A stretch of 25,629 nucleotides of DNA from a virus, in IMG/VR virus record IMGVR_UViG_3300025102_000254, positions 1-25,629 of that record; one strand, given 5' to 3'. Below are positions 1,869 through 25,629 of the stretch, one piece after another. Below the pieces are notes generated by a model that did not search any database, had not been told where the DNA came from, and saw only the letters and a list, made by a program, of their open reading frames with translations. The translations under genes were made by a program, and so were the position numbers. Numbering within the stretch: position 1 is the stretch's first letter; the number at the start of each line of letters is the position of its first letter.

Positions 1869-3623
1869 TTATGTTATTCCATAATCACTTTTAAAGTAAT
1901 CGTATATTATTTGCATATCCGCGTCTGATTTAGCTTCGCCAGACCATAAAGCTAATATTCCAAACGAACCTTGAAAATCAAAGGTGCTAAAATCTGGACG
2001 TCTACCTTCTCCATATCTAAAACCAGTAAATTGTTCTATTATTTCACTAGCTGTTAAGTTACTTGCTGGATCAGTTCCATCTGATGGATCACTTGTATTT
2101 CCACCATCATATAAATAATCTATATAAGTTCCATCATTATTTACGTTTATAGTATTACCACCGCTTACTATTCCTGAACCAGTTATAGCATTTCCAGCAT
2201 TTGTAGAGGTATATTGATTTCCAAATAAATGTCTAATTTTTGGAACAGTAGGATCAACTGATATCATTAAACAACACCATTCATCATCTGCCCAATTTTG
2301 ATAGAGAGATTGATATACGTTAGGGTTGGTAGATCTTGGTCTAAACTCCATTTTTCTAGAAGCAGAGCTACCAATTGAATCTAATTGATAACCACTATCT
2401 TCTGATGTACTATTTCCGCTAATACTTGCATCAAATAAACCTAAGTCATCTTTATCTGGTTGAGTTGAATCTACTTTAAACCAAATCATAACTGTGTATC
2501 TATCTTGAGCAGGTGCCACAGTACTATTGTTGAAAGCATAATTAGGAAAACTACTAGAAGTCCACTTGAAATAAGCATTTTGAAAAGGACTAGTAGTAGA
2601 CTCTATGAATTCTATTTCTTCCCAAGCATCACCTACTGTTGTCTGAGAATTATTTATTGTTAGACTATTACCTGTTGAAGATCCGTCAAGTACTTTTGAT
2701 GGTACTGAGCTATTATTTACTACACCTAGATTACTTACTCCAGTTCCTTGCACAGCGCCAGTATAGTCGTTTGGATCCCACAAACCATAAAGATTACTAT
2801 TTATTATCGCCAGCTCATCAACATCTGGTCCTTCTATAATACTCGCAGTTGCAAAATTTTCAAAACCAGCCCAGTATAAACAACCATAGTTATTAGATGT
2901 TGGACTAAGAGTAGGATCTGCACCATTACCCTCTTTAATCCATCTTAATACTTTAGTAGAACCATCTAATCTAATATTTGATGCATCTGATATTTTACTA
3001 CCTGTTGGAAAGTTAAAATAAGGGTTTGCTGTTGGATGTACTATTAATGTACCTGTTGCTCCATCTGGTATATCTGAAATATCGCTTGCAGTGTTTGTAG
3101 TATTATTCCACATTGTAATAACATTATCAAGCGTAATAGCTGGGTCAGGATCTTGTGTAGTAATTAATTCTATATTTGGTCCATCAACACCATAATCCCA
3201 TTTTACTACATCTCCAGCTGTTAAATTTGTAAAACCTGGAGAACCAGCTGGAATAGTGATAGTTACATTATCTGGATCATTAGCTGTAAAAGTGCCTAAT
3301 TGAGTAACACCATATGCTATAGTCAACGTGCCATCATTAACAGTTGGTACAGTAGGTAAAGTAGTCCAACTTCCATCTTTATTTATATATTGATTAACAG
3401 CGCCACCCGTTGGTAACCAATTAGCTGTAGGTAATATACCATTTTGTATATTAGAAACATCCATTTTTTCAGTAACACTTCCTACTAACTCAGTTCCAGT
3501 TATTTTTACATTTTGTCCTAAAGCATCTTGATTATCTGTTCCTACGCCAGCTATAGCTGTCATCAATTCAACATCTCCATTTTTAACTTTAGCAAAATCA
3601 CTTATTTTTTTATTATTGCTCAT
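1869..3623 (-). CDS. Tail fibre or spike protein with C-terminal LamG/concanavalin-like domain
   Basis: The 584-residue protein begins with a short conserved head (MSNNKKISDFAKVKNGD), typical of fibre N-termini that bind a virion partner. A Thr/Asn/Pro-rich beta region follows. From about residue 285 it has a jellyroll resembling laminin G/concanavalin-like lectins: YTVMIWFKVDS, EWCCLMISVD and a closing FGILALWSGEAKSDADMQ then IIYDYFKSDYG. That last motif is characteristic of LamG_3-type domains in phage and bacterial surface proteins. The likely role is sugar binding on the host surface. It starts 3 nt after the stop of the small proline-rich gene. Fibre versus spike cannot be settled from sequence alone. 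Confidence 0.75.
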   Translation of the reverse strand: MSNNKKISDFAKVKNGDVELMTAIAGVGTDNQDALGQNVKITGTELVGSVTEKMDVSNIQNGILPTANWLPTGGAVNQYINKDGSWTTLPTVPTVNDGTLTIAYGVTQLGTFTANDPDNVTITIPAGSPGFTNLTAGDVVKWDYGVDGPNIELITTQDPDPAITLDNVITMWNNTTNTASDISDIPDGATGTLIVHPTANPYFNFPTGSKISDASNIRLDGSTKVLRWIKEGNGADPTLSPTSNNYGCLYWAGFENFATASIIEGPDVDELAIINSNLYGLWDPNDYTGAVQGTGVSNLGVVNNSSVPSKVLDGSSTGNSLTINNSQTTVGDAWEEIEFIESTTSPFQNAYFKWTSSSFPNYAFNNSTVAPAQDRYTVMIWFKVDSTQPDKDDLGLFDASISGNSTSEDSGYQLDSIGSSASRKMEFRPRSTNPNVYQSLYQNWADDEWCCLMISVDPTVPKIRHLFGNQYTSTNAGNAITGSGIVSGGNTINVNNDGTYIDYLYDGGNTSDPSDGTDPASNLTASEIIEQFTGFRYGEGRRPDFSTFDFQGSFGILALWSGEAKSDADMQIIYDYFKSDYGIT

Positions 3624-7891: not shown

Positions 7892-8338
7892 TTATCTAGT
7901 TTTGTCTTTGTTAATGTTTAAAATTGAATGACTTAAAACTTTATCAATATAATTTTGGCCTTTCATTATTTTATTACTTCTTTCTGCAGTTGGAATATCT
8001 TCTTCTCCTAAAATTATTTTATATATTCTATTTAGTAATTGTTTAAATTTAAAAGAAGTTTTGTATAAATGGTATTTTTGCGTTGTTCTATTTCTTTTAC
8101 GCCAAACAATTATCCACTTGTCTTTTAATAATCTATTCCATCTTCTATTATCCCAACTATAGGAATAAACACCTTGTTTAAAATCTTGTTTAGTAAATAA
8201 TTCTAACGCGTCTAGATACATTAATAGTTCAAGGTCTGCCTCTTTAATATTACAGGTCTTTGACGCCCATTTACGTATTATTCTATAGTGTTTAAATAAA
8301 TTAAGACTTTTTAGATCTGAAGGTGTTGGTTTTCTCAT
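7892..8338 (-). CDS. Putative winged-helix (MarR-like) DNA-binding protein
   Basis: The 148-residue basic protein has a helical segment ADLELLMYLDALELFTKQDF (about 34-53), resembling the dimer or first helices of MarR-like regulators. A possible recognition-helix region, NRRWNRLLKDKW (about 68-79), is followed by a beta wing, IIVWRKRNRTTQKYHLY, and a second long helix (FKFKQLLNRIYKIIL). This order fits a winged helix. It lies just after groES, overlapping it by ATGA. It may regulate phage or host transcription. The fold assignment is by pattern only. Confidence 0.6.
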   Translation of the reverse strand: MRKPTPSDLKSLNLFKHYRIIRKWASKTCNIKEADLELLMYLDALELFTKQDFKQGVYSYSWDNRRWNRLLKDKWIIVWRKRNRTTQKYHLYKTSFKFKQLLNRIYKIILGEEDIPTAERSNKIMKGQNYIDKVLSHSILNINKDKTR

Positions 8339-8595
8339 AAAACTATTATAACATCTGACTCTCTTATAACAGAATATATTTTTTTATTTATCTCTAATAG
8401 ATTTTTACTTGCTATATCAAAATATATAGTATCACCTTTTTTAACACCTTTAACATCTGTTCCTATACTTATAACCAAAGCCTCTTGATATCTAATGTCT
8501 TCTCTTTGATTTTTACCTAAAATTAATCCACCTTCTGTTTCTACAGTTGCTGGTTCTATAGGTTGTATTATTATGTAACTACCTATAGCCTTCAT
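8335..8595 (-). CDS. groES: Co-chaperonin GroES
   Basis: The 86-residue protein fits the 10-kDa GroES ring subunit (97 residues in E. coli). It begins [15 protein letters not shown], matching the usual domain opening. The mobile loop includes GGLIL (22-26), the GroEL-binding hydrophobic tripeptide region. VKKGDTIYF (51-59) is the conserved GD strand, and it ends IRESDVIIVL. It would cap the GroEL ring to form the folding chamber. Its ATG overlaps the groEL stop (ATGA), so the pair is co-expressed, but in the order EL-ES, opposite to the usual bacterial groESL operon. Confidence 0.93.
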   Translation of the reverse strand: MKAIGSYIIIQPIEPATVETEGGLILGKNQREDIRYQEALVISIGTDVKGVKKGDTIYFDIASKNLLEINKKIYSVIRESDVIIVL

Positions 8596-10133
8596 ACTCT
8601 TAGGTTATTTATTACACAATCGGTAGATATTATTGTAGTAGCTACAGAAGCCGCGTTTTTTAGTGCGCTTTTAGTAACTAATAAAGGATCTATTATTCCG
8701 GACTTTACCATACTTACCGTTTTACCTGTAACCACATTTATTCCTTTACCATTACCTGTGGGTAAAGATATATTATCTATACCAGCGTTTTTAAGTATTG
8801 TTTCAAATGGAGCACAACAAGCGTCTAATAAAACTTGTTCTCCAACGCTTGTAGCTTTAACATTGCTTGCTGCGTTTAGCAGCGCAATGCCTCCTCCTGG
8901 AACTATACCTTCCTTAATTGCGGCTTTTGTAGCACAAATAGCATCTTCAACTCTATCTTTTTTCTCCTTAAGTTCGACTTCTGAATTAGCACCTACCTTA
9001 ACTATAGCTACTTTTCCACTTAGCCTTGATAATCTTTTTTCGTATCTTAACTTTAAGCTAGTGTTAGCTGTTTCATTTATTTGATTACGTAGCTTTTTTA
9101 TTAAGTCGTTAACTTCTTGAGAAACTTCATCAACTTGAATTATTGTTTCCACTCTATTACTTATAGACTTTTTACATCTACCTAAAGCTTCTGTACTTAT
9201 TAAATCTATATCATCGCCTAGATTTTCGTTTATTACAGTAGAACCTGTAAGTAAAGCTAAGTCATCTAAAACTTCTTTTCTATTAATACCGTGAATAGGA
9301 GCATCTATAATATTTACTTTTATATTACCTTTAACTTTATTCATTGCTAATGCTGTCATCACTTGAGGTTCTACGTCAGCTATTATTAATAAAGATTCTT
9401 TTTCCTTTATAACGTGTTCTAGTATGCTTTGTATTTTTCTAATGTTTTCAATTTTATTATCTAAAATTAAAACTAAAGGATTTTCTAGTTCAGCAGTATC
9501 TTTATCAGTATGTGTTACAAAATGAGAATTCTGATAACCAGCTTCGTATTGTACTCCTTCTATTTTTTCAATAACAGTTTCAGGAGAATCATTAGTCTCC
9601 ATCATCACTATACCTGTTTCGTCAACAGCTTTGAAGGCTTCACTTATTAATTCACCCAACTTTAAATCGTTATTGGCTGATATGGTAGCTACTTGTTTTA
9701 TTTTTTCACCTCGTACTGGTAAGGTTACTTTCTCAAGATAATGCACTACTTTTTCAACAGCCAAATTAATTCCCTCTTTTAATTGTCTTGGTGATTCTGA
9801 TTTTATTTTTTTGTAAGCTTCATTTAATATAGCGTGTGCTAAAACAGTTGCTGTTGTAGTTCCGTCTCCGGCTTCTGTAACTGTTTTTCTAGCCGCTTCT
9901 TTTAAAAGCTTAGCTCCCATGTTTTCTACAGGATCTAAAAGTATTACACTATTAGCAACCGTAACACCATCTTTTGTTATTTGAGGATTGCCACGATCAT
10001 CCTCCATTATAACACATTTTCCACTAGCTCCTAGTGTAGAGCTAACGGCTTTTGTTAACTTCTCTATACCTTCGTATATTTTATTTTTAGCATCATCACC
10101 GAAGTTAAGATGCTTTACTATAGTCTCATTCAT
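8592..10133 (-). CDS. groEL: Chaperonin GroEL
   Basis: The 513-residue protein is a full-length group I chaperonin, close to the usual 540-548 residues. Equatorial ATP-site features are intact: TLGASG (33-38), ITKDGV with Asp55, and [13 protein letters not shown] with Asp90. The later [22 protein letters not shown] block includes the catalytic Asp region matching E. coli Asp398. The C-terminus stops at [10 protein letters not shown] and lacks the GGM repeat tail found in bacterial GroEL. It would fold phage proteins, most plausibly the large capsid and fibre proteins made from the same operon. A plain host-derived copy would be expected to keep the tail; its absence and the compact arrangement suggest long phage residence. 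Confidence 0.96.
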
Positions 10134-12940: not shown

Positions 12941-14320
12941 TTAACTATTCTTTAATTGTAATGTTGTAGTATCTGATGATTTTAAAGCAACATATATTTT
13001 ATAATTTACACCACTCCACAAAGTAGTAGTAATAGACTGTGTGTCAGGATCGGAAAACAAATTTCTATTAGGATCGCTAAAGCTTGTTCCACCAATTGAT
13101 CCATTGTTTAATGCGTTTTCAAACCAAACTGTTTTATCATTTGATGTGGCTGGTGTTGCAAACCACATAAAATCAACCCCAGCAGTACCATTAAAAGCTG
13201 CTGATATATTCCCGCTTGAACTAGCAACTTCCTTAGTTGCAGTACTAGTTGGGCTTTGTATTTCAGCAACAACCTCAGCTACAGCTGTAGCATAATTAGT
13301 CCAGTTAGAAGTAGATAATCCCCAAAACCAAGGATATATTCCGGTAACACCTATGTTATTTGGAGTCTTTGATCCAACTCCTATAGCAGGACCAGAATCA
13401 GTTCCTGTACTATCCTTTAATTCATTACCTGCACTATATCCTATAGAAGAAGTATAACTAACATTTCCCAAAGGCATGATAAAATTGTCAGTTGCGGTGA
13501 AAGTATATTTTTTATTAGGAATGTTAGCGTTTGTATACCCAAATTGAGGGTCTAAGTTAGTCACTGGAGTTTCAGCAACATTTCCAACTGCTAAGCTTCC
13601 AGATAATGAACTTGTTATAGTAGGCGGAACACCATCCCAACCTCCAGAGTCGTTTTTAATTAATGCTAAAGTAATTATATTACTAACTTGAACTCCTACT
13701 TCTACAGTAGGTGGCGTCTGACTATCTGCTAAACTAGCAGTAGGAACTTCATATTCTGGAGCCAAAGTTGGAAACAATAATTTATTTAAAACATCTGTTG
13801 TAGATAATCCTACAAAATCTGCAGCTGTTAAATTATTTAAGTCATTAACATTGATAGCTACGGAAGTAGTAGGATCTATATTAGTATTATAAGCACTTGT
13901 AACTTCAGCTTTAGTAGTTGGATTTCCTGGATCTACTGTAAAATTTGAAATATCCATTGCTAATTCAGTGGCGTTTTGTATATCAGCAGTTGAACCATCT
14001 GTTTTTACACCTGTTATATTTATACTACCACCTGGACCACTACCCCCTGCAAACTCTGTCCAATCAGTTGCTTGTGTTGTACTTCCTGCAGGATTAGTAG
14101 TTAATATATATAGTTTACTTGTATCTTGTTGATACACGGCCATTCCTATCTCTCTACGTTGTTCTGTAAGTTTTCCACTAATACCTAATCTTTCATCTTG
14201 ATTAGCTACTGTTCTATATCCTCCATACCCATACGTATCTAAATGTGTAGGAAATTCAGCTATAAAGCCTCCGCCATTAGCTCCAGTGGGTCCTATGTTA
14301 TTTGTAATCTCTACTGCCAT
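12941..14320 (-). CDS. Modular tail-fibre protein sharing a domain with its neighbour
   Basis: The 459-residue protein opens with a fibre-associated module (GGYRTVANQDERLGI at 33-47, MAVYQQDTSKLYIL at 60-73). A Gly/Ser linker and a beta-rich body follow. Residues about 176-214 (VLNKLLFPTLAPEY, PPTVEVGVQVS) and WFWGLS (331-336) parallel IMNRIFYPYQEPAF, PTSLEVGTSVT and WYWGVS in the next-upstream gene, so the C-terminal halves are paralogous. There is no enzymatic motif. It is probably a receptor-binding or adaptor fibre. It ends 2 nt before the YadA-like fibre start. Confidence 0.7.
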   Translation of the reverse strand: MAVEITNNIGPTGANGGGFIAEFPTHLDTYGYGGYRTVANQDERLGISGKLTEQRREIGMAVYQQDTSKLYILTTNPAGSTTQATDWTEFAGGSGPGGSINITGVKTDGSTADIQNATELAMDISNFTVDPGNPTTKAEVTSAYNTNIDPTTSVAINVNDLNNLTAADFVGLSTTDVLNKLLFPTLAPEYEVPTASLADSQTPPTVEVGVQVSNIITLALIKNDSGGWDGVPPTITSSLSGSLAVGNVAETPVTNLDPQFGYTNANIPNKKYTFTATDNFIMPLGNVSYTSSIGYSAGNELKDSTGTDSGPAIGVGSKTPNNIGVTGIYPWFWGLSTSNWTNYATAVAEVVAEIQSPTSTATKEVASSSGNISAAFNGTAGVDFMWFATPATSNDKTVWFENALNNGSIGGTSFSDPNRNLFSDPDTQSITTTLWSGVNYKIYVALKSSDTTTLQLKNS

Positions 14321-15821: not shown

Positions 15822-16304
15822 TTAATTGATAGGTGTTAACTCAAAAGCATACCACTTAGCCTGATCGCCGCAAGCATTTCGATTCATAAATACCTCTAAG
15901 CGGCAGTCCTCGGTGTTATATCTCAAAGCGCAGTCAAAACCACCTGCCGGTCTTTCTGCTGTAGTGCCTTGAGGTAGTATTATAGCTCCTGTAGATCTTT
16001 TACTCCCAACAACTGTTTTGTTGTTCTTATCGGGATCACCTACAAAAATCTCGTTAGCATCACATGATAAGTCTAATGTGACTTTACCCGTAGCATTTGG
16101 TCCAGTAGAGGTTATTTCTAAATTATTATCTTGATTTAATATTTGAGAAACTCCTGCAGCGCCACTACTATTAAACATATATGATGTTAATTGAGAAACA
16201 CTCATAGCTCTTGTAGGAAAACCTTCTTCGCTCATGTCACATATGGGTAATAGATCTGAACCATTAATAGTGCTAATACGTGGATATGAATATATTATTG
16301 CCAT
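15822..16304 (-). CDS. Short tail-fibre protein, first gene of the late operon
   Basis: The 160-residue protein has the MAIIYSYPRI head (1-10) in common with the next gene, followed by a different beta body. Its C-terminal part reads ILPQGTTAERPAGGFDCALR, then YNTEDCRLEVFMNRN and KWYAFEL, a very common fibre tip pattern (LPxGTTxxRP...RYNTxxxxLEVF...W). The four cysteines at and after the tip could be coincidental. It is preceded by a 5-prime leader containing the TGACA hairpin element. The A-rich bases before the ATG lack a Shine-Dalgarno match. It is likely a short fibre or an adaptor for the longer ones. Confidence 0.75.
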   Translation of the reverse strand: MAIIYSYPRISTINGSDLLPICDMSEEGFPTRAMSVSQLTSYMFNSSGAAGVSQILNQDNNLEITSTGPNATGKVTLDLSCDANEIFVGDPDKNNKTVVGSKRSTGAIILPQGTTAERPAGGFDCALRYNTEDCRLEVFMNRNACGDQAKWYAFELTPIN

Positions 16305-16376
16305 GTTTTTTGTTTAAATTTTTAATATCTTGTATATTAATAGTTATTCACATATTTTATTTGTTTTTTACAAGTG

Positions 16377-16418
16377 TGACACTAGCTACTTATTAGTATA
16401 CCTAACACCCTATTGTCA
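16377..16418 (-). ncRNA. TGACA...TGTCA hairpin element, copy A (late leader)
   Basis: On the minus strand the 42-nt element folds as TGACA/TGTCA, TAG/CTA and TGTTA/TAATA (one G-U pair) around a short loop. The plus strand would have an A-C mismatch instead, so the minus-strand RNA is the better folder. It shares blocks TGACAATAG, TGTTA, TATACTAA, AAG, CTA and TGTCACACT with copy B at 17266-17308. It lies in the leader of the leftward operon. It could be an RNA processing site, a regulatory hairpin or a DNA operator. Confidence 0.6.
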
Positions 16419-16455
16419 CTATTTTAAAAAAATTATAATATATATAGAAGTAAAG

Positions 16456-16564
16456 GGTTGCCCCCCTCTCCCCTACTTTTTTCCTAAAACCAAAACGCTT
16501 TATTTTTACCCGGGTCCCCCTTTGTTCCTCCAGCGATCCCATTTCCGTTTACGTTTTTGCCCCC
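16456..16564. other. Pyrimidine-rich C-tract island, possible origin or G-quadruplex site
   Basis: In an AT-rich genome this stretch has repeated C runs on the plus strand: six C at 16461-16466, four at 16470-16473, CCCGGG at 16509-16514, five at 16516-16520, three at 16538-16540 and five at 16560-16564. Few purines lie between them. The minus strand is correspondingly G-tracted and could form G-quadruplexes. Its position at the divergence point would suit a replication origin or a switch site. Function is inferred only. Confidence 0.45.
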
Positions 16565-16593
16565 ATACATCTCTCCTACATTTGAGCATTTTG

Positions 16594-16624
16594 CATACTA
16601 AGTACGATACATATAAGATAATAT
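16594..16624 (+). promoter_or_regulatory. T7-like promoter P1
   Basis: This contains TACGA (16603-16607), 8 variable bases, then AGATAATAT, with the predicted +1 G at 16617. The upstream flank ACTAAG resembles the consensus ACTAAA. It is the first rightward promoter after the divergent region and leads to the 33-residue membrane peptide, with a 46-nt leader. Confidence 0.75.
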
Positions 16625-16662
16625 ACATGTAACTAAATTAATAATAACTTAAAACAAATAAC

Positions 16663-16764
16663 ATGAATAACTTAATTAACATTATCAAATCAAACTCTAT
16701 CTCCATCACAATGAATATTATATTCATATCATACTTCATCTTCTTATATTCAATAGCAATATAA
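16663..16764 (+). CDS. 33-residue hydrophobic peptide
   Basis: The short frame has a polar start (MNNLINIIKSNSISIT) followed by one membrane segment (NIIFISYFIFLYSIAI) and a stop. It is the first gene after promoter P1. Single-span early peptides of this size are common in phages and often act on host membranes, but there is no family match. The short length makes a chance frame possible; the promoter context is the main support. Confidence 0.45.
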   Translation: MNNLINIIKSNSISITMNIIFISYFIFLYSIAI

Positions 16765-16769
16765 TTAAT

Positions 16770-16801
16770 ACAAAGTAATAACGACTATACAAAGATAATA
16801 T
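16770..16801 (+). promoter_or_regulatory. T7-like promoter P2
   Basis: The core reads AACGA (16780-16784, one change from TACGA), then 8 bases and AGATAATAT, with the predicted +1 G at 16794. ACAAAGTAA stands upstream. The leader to the 71-residue gene at 16847 is 53 nt of A/T-rich sequence. Confidence 0.7.
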
Positions 16802-16846
16802 ATACAAATAAACTAAACTAATAATAACTAAATAAATATAACAATT

Positions 16847-17062
16847 ATGACTAATCAAATAACTAAATCAAGATTCATTATCTCTAACTCTCTACTAGGT
16901 TCTAACCTCATCATAACATTCACTAATAAAAAAGGCGAATCATATACATACGATCACGATCAAGTGTTTGCTAACAATCAAACAAGATTACTATCCATGA
17001 ACTGCTTCATTAAGTATGGCAATTACACTAACTCAAATAAAATACCTACTTGGGCTATATAA
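16847..17062 (+). CDS. Early small protein, paralogue of the gene at 17630
   Basis: The 71-residue protein aligns along its length with the 79-residue protein encoded at 17630. Shared elements are KSRF-I-I-S/RKSL-G, IITFTNKKGESYTYDHD versus IVTFTNSKGITYTYDHD, SMNCF-x-x-Y and YTNSN. It is small, beta-rich and without a membrane segment. The YTYDHD motif is the best conserved stretch. It looks like an early host-takeover protein that was duplicated; the target is unknown. Confidence 0.7.
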   Translation: MTNQITKSRFIISNSLLGSNLIITFTNKKGESYTYDHDQVFANNQTRLLSMNCFIKYGNYTNSNKIPTWAI

Positions 17063-17066
17063 TAAG

Positions 17067-17097
17067 CAAACTAAATACGAATAACTTAAGATAATAT
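17067..17097 (+). promoter_or_regulatory. T7-like promoter P3
   Basis: CAAACTAAATACGA, 8 bases, then AGATAATAT, with the predicted +1 G at 17090. It begins 5 nt after the preceding gene and leads to the 46-residue gene at 17121 with a 31-nt leader. Confidence 0.78.
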
Positions 17098-17120
17098 AAT
17101 AAACTAATAAAATAAATAAT

Positions 17121-17261
17121 ATGAATAATTTAACTAAAAAACAATCTCACGAAATTACTAATCTTTACGACATGCTTAGCAATGGCTGGCATTATACTAA
17201 TCATCCAATGCATTACAAGTTTATGCAAGCTCACAATGATTTACCTGATTACAATGAGTAA
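17121..17261 (+). CDS. 46-residue early hypothetical protein
   Basis: The protein is short, polar and helical at the start (MNNLTKKQSHEITNLYDML), then aromatic and His-rich (NGWHYTNHPMHYKFMQAH). The family is not recognised. It has its own promoter (P3), and the copy B hairpin begins 5 nt after its stop, which supports a monocistronic unit. Confidence 0.55.
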   Translation: MNNLTKKQSHEITNLYDMLSNGWHYTNHPMHYKFMQAHNDLPDYNE

Positions 17262-17265
17262 ACTA

Positions 17266-17308
17266 TGACAATAGCCTGTTACTCTTATATACTAACAAGC
17301 TAATGTCA
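17266..17308 (+). ncRNA. TGACA...TGTCA hairpin element, copy B
   Basis: The 43-nt hairpin has paired blocks TGACA (17266-17270)/TGTCA (17304-17308), AGC/GCT, and TGTTA (17277-17281)/TAACA (17293-17297), with an 11-nt loop. It is related to copy A on the other strand. It lies directly after the 46-residue gene, so it may end or process that transcript, or bind a regulator. No U-tract follows immediately, which argues against a classical terminator. Confidence 0.65.
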
Positions 17309-17629: not shown

Positions 17630-17869
17630 ATGAAAACTAATAATTTAACAACAAAAAGATTTGTAATAAGAAAATCTTTAATCGGCGAAAACGCTATCGT
17701 AACTTTTACTAACTCAAAAGGTATAACTTATACTTATGACCATGACGAGATCTACTCTACGTTTCAAGAAAAATTCGAGTCAATGAATTGCTTTCAAGAG
17801 TATAAATCTTACACTAACTCTAATATTGTACCAAAATTCTGCAGAGAATTAGCTACAGTAAGTGAGTAG
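17630..17869 (+). CDS. Early small protein, paralogue of the gene at 16847
   Basis: This is the 79-residue partner of the protein at 16847. It keeps KRFVIRKSLIGENAIVTFTN, YTYDHDEIY, SMNCFQEYKSYTNSN and a longer, more polar C-terminus (KFCRELATVSE). It is beta-rich, with no signal or membrane segment. The two copies have separate promoters and lie about 570 bp apart, consistent with tandem duplication and divergence. The function is unknown. Confidence 0.72.
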   Translation: MKTNNLTTKRFVIRKSLIGENAIVTFTNSKGITYTYDHDEIYSTFQEKFESMNCFQEYKSYTNSNIVPKFCRELATVSE

Positions 17870-21276: not shown

Positions 21277-21546
21277 TGACAGGTGAATATGTGTAAGACT
21301 AAGAAGGGCTCGTTTCGAGACAGAAAGCATCATCTGCTATGGCACACCTGTCATACTTAAACCACGACTTCAACCCACCGTGTCGTAGCGGTGAAGAAGA
21401 CAAACAGTGGGGTTGAGTGACGGCTCAACTTGGACAGCGAGGTCAGGTGTATACTGATTAAATGAGGTAAATGTTCGCATAGAAAACCCATCGATGAAGT
21501 TACAGACTGTTCTAGACATGAGAGGTTCGAATCCTCTCTCTCGCTC
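21277..21546 (+). ncRNA. Large structured RNA candidate with tRNA-like T-arm
   Basis: This GC-richer, gene-free region folds into several stems. They are TGACAGGTG (21277-21285)/CACCTGTCA (21345-21353), CACCG/CGGTG (21376-21380/21389-21393), GTTGAG/CTCAAC (21412-21417/21424-21429) as an alternative to CAACCC/GGGTTG, and TCAG/CTGA (21443-21446/21454-21457). The 3-prime end has GAGAGG, loop TTCGAAT, CCTCTC (21520-21538), a perfect T-arm. AGCGAGG (21436-21442) pairs with TCTCGCT (21539-21545) like an acceptor stem, but the gap is 77 nt with no anticodon arm. A tRNA, or a tmRNA with a usual tag (no GCAGCTTAA-type end), is not supported. It may be a stable regulatory or tRNA-mimicking RNA. It lies between the P7 and P8 units. 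Confidence 0.6.
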
Positions 21547-21550
21547 TAAA

Positions 21551-21582
21551 ACAAATTAAATACGAACACTTATAGATAATAT
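21551..21582 (+). promoter_or_regulatory. T7-like promoter P8 (best consensus match)
   Basis: ACAAATTAAATACGA, 8 bases (ACACTTAT), then AGATAATAT, with the predicted +1 G at 21575. Against T7 AATACGACTCACTATAG it keeps AATACGA and TATAG at equal distance. The ATG at 21587 gives a 12-nt leader. Confidence 0.82.
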
Positions 21583-21586
21583 ATGT

Positions 21587-21802
21587 ATGAATAAAATATG
21601 TAAATGTGGCAATGAGATCCACCCAGTAAGAATTAAATATGGTTATAACAATTGTGTAGCATGTTCTACCGTTGAGAAATACGGTTGTGCTCCAATCATT
21701 AATCATAAAACAGGTAATAGTATAGAAATATTGTCTCGAGCAGATGCAAAGCGCATCGCCAAATTAACTAGGCGTAAAGGTTACGGCACAATGCTAAGAT
21801 AA
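21587..21802 (+). CDS. Small zinc-ribbon protein
   Basis: The 71-residue protein has Cys5, Cys7, Cys23 and Cys26 in KICKCGNEIHPVRIKYGY then NNCVACS, a compact treble-clef zinc ribbon in the manner of DksA/TraR-type fingers. A conserved C-terminal part follows: KYGCAPIINHKTGN and RIAKLTRRKGYG. It could bind RNA polymerase or nucleic acid. The CPV-like NHKTGN-x-I-x-x-(L/M)-S pattern is seen in other marine phages. It follows P8 with a 12-nt leader. Confidence 0.72.
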   Translation: MNKICKCGNEIHPVRIKYGYNNCVACSTVEKYGCAPIINHKTGNSIEILSRADAKRIAKLTRRKGYGTMLR

Positions 21803-24193: not shown

Positions 24194-25028
24194 ACCTATG
24201 CTAGCGCATAAATATAATCCTGACAAAGCTGATTACCCTGCATACATACAGCCAAAACTAGACGGCGTAAGATGTGTATTTACAAAAGACGGTGCATACA
24301 GTAGAACAGGTAAAGAGTTTAAAAATGTAGATCACATCAAAAAAGACTTAGAAGTAGTATTTAACAGATACCCAAATCTTATACTAGATGGCGAATTATA
24401 TAACCACGGATTAAAAGATGACTTTGAAAAGATTATTTCATTAGTTAGAAAAACTAAACCAACACAAGATCACAAAGACGAAGCAGCTCAACTAGTACAA
24501 TATCATATGTATGATGTAGCTAGTTTTCCACACGCTACATACAACTGGCGTATGAACTTTATAAACACACTAAACGAATCTGCTGTAGTTAAAACTAGCA
24601 CTTGTCTATGTTTTATTGAAACTAAAGTTGTACTAGATTATGACGAAGCAGTTAAACAACACAAAAAATACCTAAAACTAGGTTATGAAGGTAGTATATA
24701 CAGATCTATTGATGGTAAATACAAAAATACTAGGTCATGGGACTTAATGAAGTTCAAAGACTTTGAAGATTCAGAAGCCACAATTGTTGGCTATGAACTA
24801 GGTAAAGGTAAGAGGCAAGGCACGCTTGGTAAGTTCATCATGCAAGATGACGAAGGTATACAGTTCGGCTGCCCACCGGGCAAAGGTTATACCTACAAGG
24901 ATCTAGCCGCTATGATCGATAACATTAGTGACTTTATAGGTCAGCGTGCTACCTTTACTTATTTTCAACGAACACAAGCAGGTTCTTACAGACACCCGCT
25001 TTACAAATGCATACGTAACTACGAATGA
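24180..25028 (+). CDS. ATP-dependent DNA ligase
   Basis: The 282-residue protein is a compact ATP-dependent ligase that seals nicks during replication and repair. Motif I is PKLDGVR with the adenylated Lys26, motif III is LDGELY with Glu72, motif IV is GYEGSIYR with Glu170, and motif V is LMKFKDF with Lys191 and Lys193. A C-terminal OB-like domain (about 197-282) has EATIVGYELGKGKRQGTLGK then ATFTYFQRTQAGSYRHP. The length is near T7-type ligases minus extra inserts. All key motifs look intact. It overlaps the following gene by four bases (ATGA). Confidence 0.93.
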   Translation: MKTIKPMLAHKYNPDKADYPAYIQPKLDGVRCVFTKDGAYSRTGKEFKNVDHIKKDLEVVFNRYPNLILDGELYNHGLKDDFEKIISLVRKTKPTQDHKDEAAQLVQYHMYDVASFPHATYNWRMNFINTLNESAVVKTSTCLCFIETKVVLDYDEAVKQHKKYLKLGYEGSIYRSIDGKYKNTRSWDLMKFKDFEDSEATIVGYELGKGKRQGTLGKFIMQDDEGIQFGCPPGKGYTYKDLAAMIDNISDFIGQRATFTYFQRTQAGSYRHPLYKCIRNYE

Positions 25029-25510
25029 ATATATTTTATTTACACAGAGACCCTTATAAAGCAGCTGAGTATCAATACAACAAACACGTTGTTAAGATGA
25101 TCTTAGAATCAGCCCAAATGCTTTGTACAGCACATCATGAGATAATGGGAGATGATGCAGACGTACCATACAAACGTGCACATGTAAATCACCCATCTAC
25201 AGTGTGGGCTAGACAAAATAAAAATCATTACAGATGGCTGTTTAATCACATGGTTGCGTTGGGTCATGAATATACGGCAAGATACGGTAAAACACATTTA
25301 TCAATTAACAAATGCTTTTTACCATTATACAGATATCCTGTAGGTATACCTGATGGTGTGTTTGAACAACCACCTCAATGCATGCCTGATGAATATAAAG
25401 ATGACTGCAGCGTGAAAGCTTACTGGAACTATTACATAGGTGAAAAGCACACTGTTGCAGCTAAAAACGAAAAAATATATGAGAAAATTGATATGGAAGC
25501 TTTACAATGA
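25025..25510 (+). CDS. Conserved phage protein, possibly repair-related (KHVVKMILESAQML family)
   Basis: The 161-residue protein begins MNIFYLHRDPYKAAEYQYNK, followed by HVVKMILESAQMLCTAHHE. It has HPSTVWARQNKNHYRWL in the middle, GHEYTARYGKTH, then PPQCMPDEYKDD and a terminal AYWNYYIGEKH. This combination is a widespread phage family, and some entries are named pyrimidine dimer glycosylase-like, but I cannot confirm that. Several conserved His, Arg and Glu residues would suit an enzyme. Co-expression with the ligase fits DNA repair. The family is known, the function uncertain. Confidence 0.65.
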   Translation: MNIFYLHRDPYKAAEYQYNKHVVKMILESAQMLCTAHHEIMGDDADVPYKRAHVNHPSTVWARQNKNHYRWLFNHMVALGHEYTARYGKTHLSINKCFLPLYRYPVGIPDGVFEQPPQCMPDEYKDDCSVKAYWNYYIGEKHTVAAKNEKIYEKIDMEALQ

Positions 25511-25612: not shown

Positions 25613-25629
25613 GATACAAACACGAATTA
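25613..25629 (+). promoter_or_regulatory. Possible truncated promoter at window end
   Basis: GATACAAACACGAATTA follows the copy 2 element at the same place where promoter P10 follows copy 1. It has the ACAAAC start and an ACGA core but lacks the TAAAT block. The window ends before the AGATAATAT half could be seen. Confidence 0.3.

Follow-up and report, generated by a model that had tools for sequence, protein, structure and literature searches.

Helix-turn-helix (HTH) repressors that control their own synthesis have a palindromic operator at the start of the regulator's own gene, and phage-encoded sigma factors, such as T4 gp55, serve late transcription. In phage phi29, the protein p4 binds imperfect inverted repeats located between the early A2b/A2c promoters and the late A3 promoter, and this one protein both represses early and activates late transcription. 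The p4 consensus is CTTTTT-15 bp-AAAATG, its four sites lie in one region, and p4 has a mixed fold of its own (PMC3100819).

The DNA analyzed here (the window) is a 25.6-kb linear virus contig, positions 1 to 25,629 of IMG/VR record IMGVR_UViG_3300025102_000254. Its leftward arm carries structural, lysis, chaperonin and terminase genes, and its rightward arm carries small early genes, a ligase gene and a Pyr_excise-like gene. A GroES-like gene (86 aa, by eye) and a GroEL gene (513 aa, PHROG 5725) were observed in the late arm at 8335-10133. The window's terminase fragment is nearest to that of MW202828, an uncultured podovirus (58% identity), followed by those of Cellulophaga and Flavobacterium phages. 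The terminase relatives, together with the names of the metagenome-assembled genomes (MAGs) noted below, indicate that the host is a probable member of the Bacteroidota. Two palindromes reported in this region by an earlier note are real, and they are separated by 847 bp. We refer to them as elements A and B; they flank the first early genes, and the features around them are as follows.

15822..16304, minus strand: first late gene (MAIIYSYPR.., 160 aa), with weak PHROG matches that make it structural-like, beginning 72 bp after A
16340..16374, minus strand: late-promoter-like cTTGTAA-N16-TGTGAATAACTAT, 2 bp downstream of A
16377..16418, minus strand: element A, imperfect palindrome with halves TGACAATAG and TGACACTAG, its consensus orientation facing the leftward late genes
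16603..16622, plus strand (rightward): first early-promoter-like TACGA-N-GATAAT in the A-B interval, read as a motif
16847..17062, plus strand: early ORF, 71 aa, resembling the 79-aa ORF at 17630-17869 and the ~77-aa early ORFs of relatives
17076..17095, plus strand (rightward): second early-promoter-like TACGA-N-GATAAT in the A-B interval, read as a motif
17122..17262, plus strand: early ORF, 46 aa, read in the sequence, directly preceding B
17266..17308, minus strand: element B, imperfect palindrome with halves TGACATTAG and TGACAATAG, oriented as A, 3 nt past the stop of the ORF at 17122-17262
16771, 17067, 17412, 17560, 18529, 21075, 21552, 22435 and 23859, plus strand (rightward): starts of the CAAACTAAATACGA-N-AGATAATAT block
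25025..25510, plus strand: Pyr_excise-like gene, whose homologue in the related locus L249 directly precedes a third site, C, and an HTH gene

The elements are conserved among related phages, they keep a set orientation, they stand in recurring contexts and they co-occur. Our reading is that they are putative double-stranded DNA operators of a phage-encoded HTH regulator that switches expression from early to late genes, to which we assign a probability of roughly 0.7.

Within the window, TGACANTAG occurs four times (1.1 expected), solely at the four arms of A and B. A profile built from 138 exact elements scored the two copies at 50.4 and 62.8 bits, with the rest of the window below 15 bits. 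The same profile had no match of 20 bits or more in 2.26 Mb of control sequence obtained by reversing the loci. The copies had been described as an inverted pair, a description that did not survive orientation of the elements by their polar center, in which AGTAA lies in the right half (126 elements were oriented in this way). By this measure both window copies lie on the minus strand (margins of 13.2 and 12.7) and are direct repeats. Copies less than 4 kb apart had the same orientation in all 30 distinct pairs, and in 14/14 pairs of an independently fetched set, which rules out an inverted pair bounding an invertible segment. Sites for a recombinase that inverts or resolves the 847-bp segment are an extremely improbable alternative: in many genomes two polar copies do enclose a promoter segment, but those copies are direct rather than inverted (30/30 and 14/14), A and B differ in sequence, and a search of the HTH protein revealed no recombinase catalytic domain.

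The element is a 41-44 bp imperfect palindrome, RTGACA-W-TAG..AGTAA..CTA-W-TGTCAY. Its length was 42-44 in the 126 distinct exact elements and 41-44 in a wider set, and the oriented consensus of the 126 was R TGACA W TAG S Y T N T T A, N, A G T A A N R G S CTA W TGTCA Y. A search for the element in relatives, as the earlier note had advised, was successful: the DNA pattern matched at least 120 viral stretches. Using the window late protein adjoining A as the query returned 80 viral loci, many with the same palindrome. Among 66 loci fetched solely by the window's DNA-ligase protein, the element was present in 63 and the HTH gene in 54; the loci without a match of at least 20 bits were L271, where the HTH start has an element of 16.9 bits, L284, and L301, which spans only 2.5 kb. 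A search of genome contigs gave 15 stretches, in which the profile scored >50 bits in seven, 24.8 and 27.0 bits in two, 16.0 bits in one and <12 bits in five. The top nine of these stretches sit on MAG contigs, and the HTH protein was present in 3/15 (L254, L255 and L259).

The usual count was three elements per genome. In two divergent phages, L245 and L248, the same odd half-site letters were observed in every one of the three sites, which suggests that one trans-acting protein reads all of the sites. Loss from close relatives, which the earlier note had named as evidence against the pair, was for the most part not seen. A, B and C are all present in L266 and L268 (ligase identity to the window of 86% and 81%), laid out as in the window; in L269, with a 96% identical ligase, A is kept and B has been lost together with about 290 bp. 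B is therefore dispensable in at least one phage, which counts against the operator reading.

The contexts of the sites differ by class. Element A stands beside a late promoter-like sequence: the pattern TTG-N18-TGTAAGTA was found 1-18 bp downstream of 26/280 distinct elements, window A included, and in 0/374 entries at each of three control placements. The spacing of the window's late-promoter-like sequence recurs downstream of 26 distinct elements; strict promoter patterns miss most elements (matches in 16/138 of one set and 26/280 distinct elements of another). By eye, A seemed to be helically phased to the promoter, but a period scan showed no 10.5-bp periodicity and the idea was dropped. 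About 10-45 bp upstream of A in relatives (e.g., L025, L029, L104 and L132) we noted by eye a motif like ACCCnATACTyCTATATTTGTAACG, whose window counterpart is the related CAACCCTTTACTTCTATATATATTATAA on the minus strand (by eye).

The distance from A to B was 308-2602 bp across relatives, save for one case of 59 bp. In these segments the early ORFs and TACGA-N-GATAAT motifs oppose the element orientation, with a few short contrary ORFs, and the early motif is confined to the early strand. In many relatives, by eye, a ~77-aa early gene ends directly before B. The 71-aa early ORF of the window (16847..17062) had no match in a PHROG search. The CAAACTAAATACGA-N-AGATAATAT block, a promoter-like sequence ahead of early genes that makes up direct-repeat family D2 with nine rightward copies, is probably the phage early promoter. 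A C-rich island (CCCCCCTCTCCCC, CCCGGGTCCCCC) occupies 16455-16580, between A and the first early-promoter-like motif, where the surrounding GC content is 26-29%.

Site C was found 4.0-9.2 kb from the neighboring copy and was opposite to it in orientation in 14/15 cases, and in 26/26 of a second set. Its right end, CTA-ATG-TCA, includes the codon at which a ~205-aa HTH protein starts. Among 81 distinct starts of the HTH gene, 80 carried the element at ≥12 bits and 79 at ≥20 bits, with the ATG exactly 6 nt from the right end of the element in 77/81; it was present in 0/60 random control stretches. The sole start scored as lacking it, in L225, does carry an element by a separate profile scan (48.5 bits). 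The window itself has neither the HTH gene nor the sigma gene described below, since the contig ends first; judging from the layout of L266 and L325, the window phage would have site C and its HTH gene just past base 25629, with C and the HTH-sigma pair expected within roughly 0.1-0.3 kb. A fourth class, D, was observed in some phages, with an element 30-32 bp before the ATG of another protein in 19/37 rows (PHROG 34748; in L098 this protein has 284 aa and is encoded at 2218-3069, minus strand).

Could A and B instead mark a replication origin at the early/late divergence, with the HTH protein as initiator? They are located at the divergence, the composition skew shifts in the region of A and B, and the HTH protein is encoded in the arm with primase/helicase and recombination genes. 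On the other hand, the sites are single and scattered, no iteron cluster is present, and a sigma factor is co-encoded. One copy class, D, precedes a gene of another transcription unit and C sits on the regulator's start codon, so the origin-linked option of the earlier note is less likely than operators, and we regard it as rather unlikely.

The protein encoded at C has a mean column identity of 61% over 11 aligned sequences. Pfam HTH_11 matched it with an E-value of 4.5e-5 and 23.7 bits, below the cut-off of 25, and other Pfam HTH matches were also under their curated cut-offs. A confident structural model of the protein (pLDDT 87.9) has a C-terminal domain resembling the HTH domains of TetR, MntR and sigma proteins with middling Z scores of 5-6. 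The partner gene is thus predicted to encode a helix-turn-helix DNA-binding protein. By sequence, only weak matches were found in the PDB; a Foldseek search of the PDB with the model gave nothing at E≤0.001, and one against BFVD gave one protein (E 6e-11, 30% identity). No match to the HTH protein was obtained by tblastn at E 0.01 in 50,697 named-phage records.

The HTH protein and the element occur together. It was present in 33/35 records, and the two exceptions, G001 and MW202828, had no exact element over their full length (the profile scan covered 20 of 50 kb in G001 and 40.6 of 60.9 kb in MW202828). Four records with the HTH protein that lacked an exact element hold degenerate copies. 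A sigma-like ORF lies within 1.5 kb downstream of the HTH gene, mostly adjoining it, in 82 of the 85 loci with enough downstream DNA. Its representative in L249 (11036-11788) matched Sigma70_r2 with 29.6 bits (cut-off 24), Sigma70_r4 with 22.1 bits (just under the cut-off of 24.1) and PHROG 351 at E 1e-22. With both region 2 and region 4 recognizable, the gene after the HTH gene is predicted to belong to the sigma-70 family.

That sigma gene is linked to the element equally well, so the sites might be read by its product, by a host protein or by a third factor, the link to the HTH gene then reflecting regulation of its own start only. We consider this unlikely. Sigma promoters are not typically 41-44 bp dyads, the HTH protein is DNA-binding in fold and has an operator where its own gene starts, and the two records without it are also without an exact element.

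Under the operator reading, we propose the following sequence of events. Early in infection, the rightward TACGA-N-GATAAT promoters between and beyond A and B would be active. The gene for the regulator would lie in the early arm, about 6-9 kb downstream, beginning inside its own operator (C) and next to that of the sigma-70-type factor, and the HTH-sigma pair would build up with sigma acting as a partner. HTH protein on A, beside the leftward late promoter, would then aid use of that promoter. With A and B bound together, the early-promoter segment may be occluded or looped and so shut down, and HTH protein on C would limit its own synthesis. Binding of the HTH protein to the elements is inferred, as are its activating role at A, its repressing role at B and C and any looping.

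The elements follow the constraint pattern of double-stranded DNA rather than that of RNA. At eight conserved arm positions, the changes in 280 distinct elements comprised 158 one-sided cases, 6 compensated ones and 5 in which both sides had changed without pairing, and at the inner positions 10-16 Watson-Crick pairing occurred at the expected rate with no covariation. The great excess of one-sided over compensated changes is what is expected from drift in a dyad DNA site and not from a conserved RNA stem. It had also been proposed that a G-C/G-U difference between the copies was a sign of structure. Among the 126 elements the flanking pair -1/+1 was G.C in 50, A.C in 40, G.T in 30, A.T in 5 and C.T in 1; that is, R/Y, so pairing is not conserved there and the proposal falls.

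Conserved RNA hairpins in the leaders of both arms, serving as RNase III or antitermination sites, would fit the folding of the single window copies, which was better than that of shuffled sequences (z of -2.6 and -4.0), and the conserved dyad ends; the pairing-avoiding position described below could be an internal loop. These good single-copy folds are outweighed by the variation across relatives (158 one-sided against 6 compensated arm changes, an interior without covariation and an unpaired -1/+1), and by consensus orientation B is antisense to the early transcripts. RNA hairpins are for these reasons very unlikely. When the whole window was compared with Rfam at E≤1, the one match was unrelated and sub-threshold, at 13540-13712. 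Thus, of the functions that the earlier note had offered for the pair, operators are supported and RNase III-type RNA sites are contradicted, as arm changes are one-sided and inner positions are not paired beyond chance.

A third stem, at 21277, had been likened to the pair as a further copy, which it is not: it has no profile match. This stem-loop (TGACAGGTG..CACCTGTCA, 21277-21352, about 76 nt) is missing at the same place in L266, L268, L269 and L277 and is probably a lineage-specific insertion beside a tRNA-like RNA. The neighboring stretch 21437-21548 is conserved and non-coding, with identities of 96.5% to L269, 86.7% to L266 and 80.7% to L268 over the matched parts of 21360-21600. Its ends look tRNA-like, in that AGCGAGG pairs with a 3' CTCGCT and GAGAGGTTCGAATCCTCTC resembles a T-arm, and its middle varies in length, being short in L277. 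ARAGORN and Rfam reported nothing for 21437-21548.

Comparison of the two halves of each element revealed a further property. At position 6 the two halves carried the same letter in 1/126 elements (54.5 expected), and collection-wide the self-complementary forms were found in 3 and 1 stretches, whereas the T..T / A..A form was found in at least 120. Position 6 does pair in 26/280 elements of the wider set found with the profile (115 expected), and 22 of those 26 differ elsewhere. The 9-bp halves were identical in 4/280 elements (permutation mean 65.0, minimum 44, 2000 permutations) and in 1/137 of those fetched solely by proteins (permutation mean 20.6, minimum 9 in 2000), where the permutations serve as a guide and not as a probability because related sequences are not independent. 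Exactly one of the two halves is TGACATTAG in 201/280. Relative to the polar center, T..T was found in 61/126 and A..A in 45/126; since both occur, position 6 does not set direction. Elements of class A and unclassified elements were mostly T..T. Those of class C were mostly A..A, as the right end of C holds the ATG.

This avoidance is not predicted by simple homodimer binding, which should favor identical halves. We tentatively suggest that the asymmetry is forced, such that a single protein has to recognize half-sites that are not identical, most often TGACATTAG together with a variant, on either side of a polar center. Avoidance of perfect palindromes for reasons of DNA stability would be another cause of the rule, and is not favored because no avoidance was seen at inner positions 10-16. 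A target-site duplication or mobile element, raised by the finding of the same base at mirror positions on one strand, was dropped because the elements occupy fixed functional places (start codon, promoter). If the asymmetry rule is true, the complex would be an obligate asymmetric, directional assembly for which a perfect palindrome is non-functional or harmful, and a new operator logic would join a new HTH-sigma switch module across a large group of uncultured phages. The half-site rule is a sharp puzzle for protein-DNA recognition.

Searches of the literature listed no description of the motif or the circuit, nor any such switch for uncultured phages of probable Bacteroidota hosts. What had been a raw repeat becomes a testable circuit of operator, HTH regulator, sigma factor and late promoter that is common to many uncultured phages.

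As in autoregulated HTH repressors, the regulator gene has an operator at its own start; unlike in those systems, the half-sites are almost never identical (4/280) and the center is polar. Like T4 with gp55, these phages encode a sigma factor, here a sigma-70-type gene next to the regulator in 82/85 loci, but its putative role is coupled to a dedicated HTH protein and a putative operator. The phi29 p4 system (PMC3100819) shares with this one a phage-encoded regulator and imperfect inverted repeats that separate early from late promoters, the promoters here being predicted rather than mapped; the dual role shown for p4 is proposed here. The absence of p4 from the structural matches listed for the HTH model excludes nothing. 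Compared with the p4 system, the one described here differs in its consensus (TGACAWTAG..CTAWTGTCA in 126 oriented elements, not CTTTTT-15-AAAATG), in its three dispersed sites, in an operator holding the regulator's start codon and in the co-encoded sigma factor. By analogy, we propose that the switch would work like p4 and, given its different site consensus, we do not place it in the p4 family.
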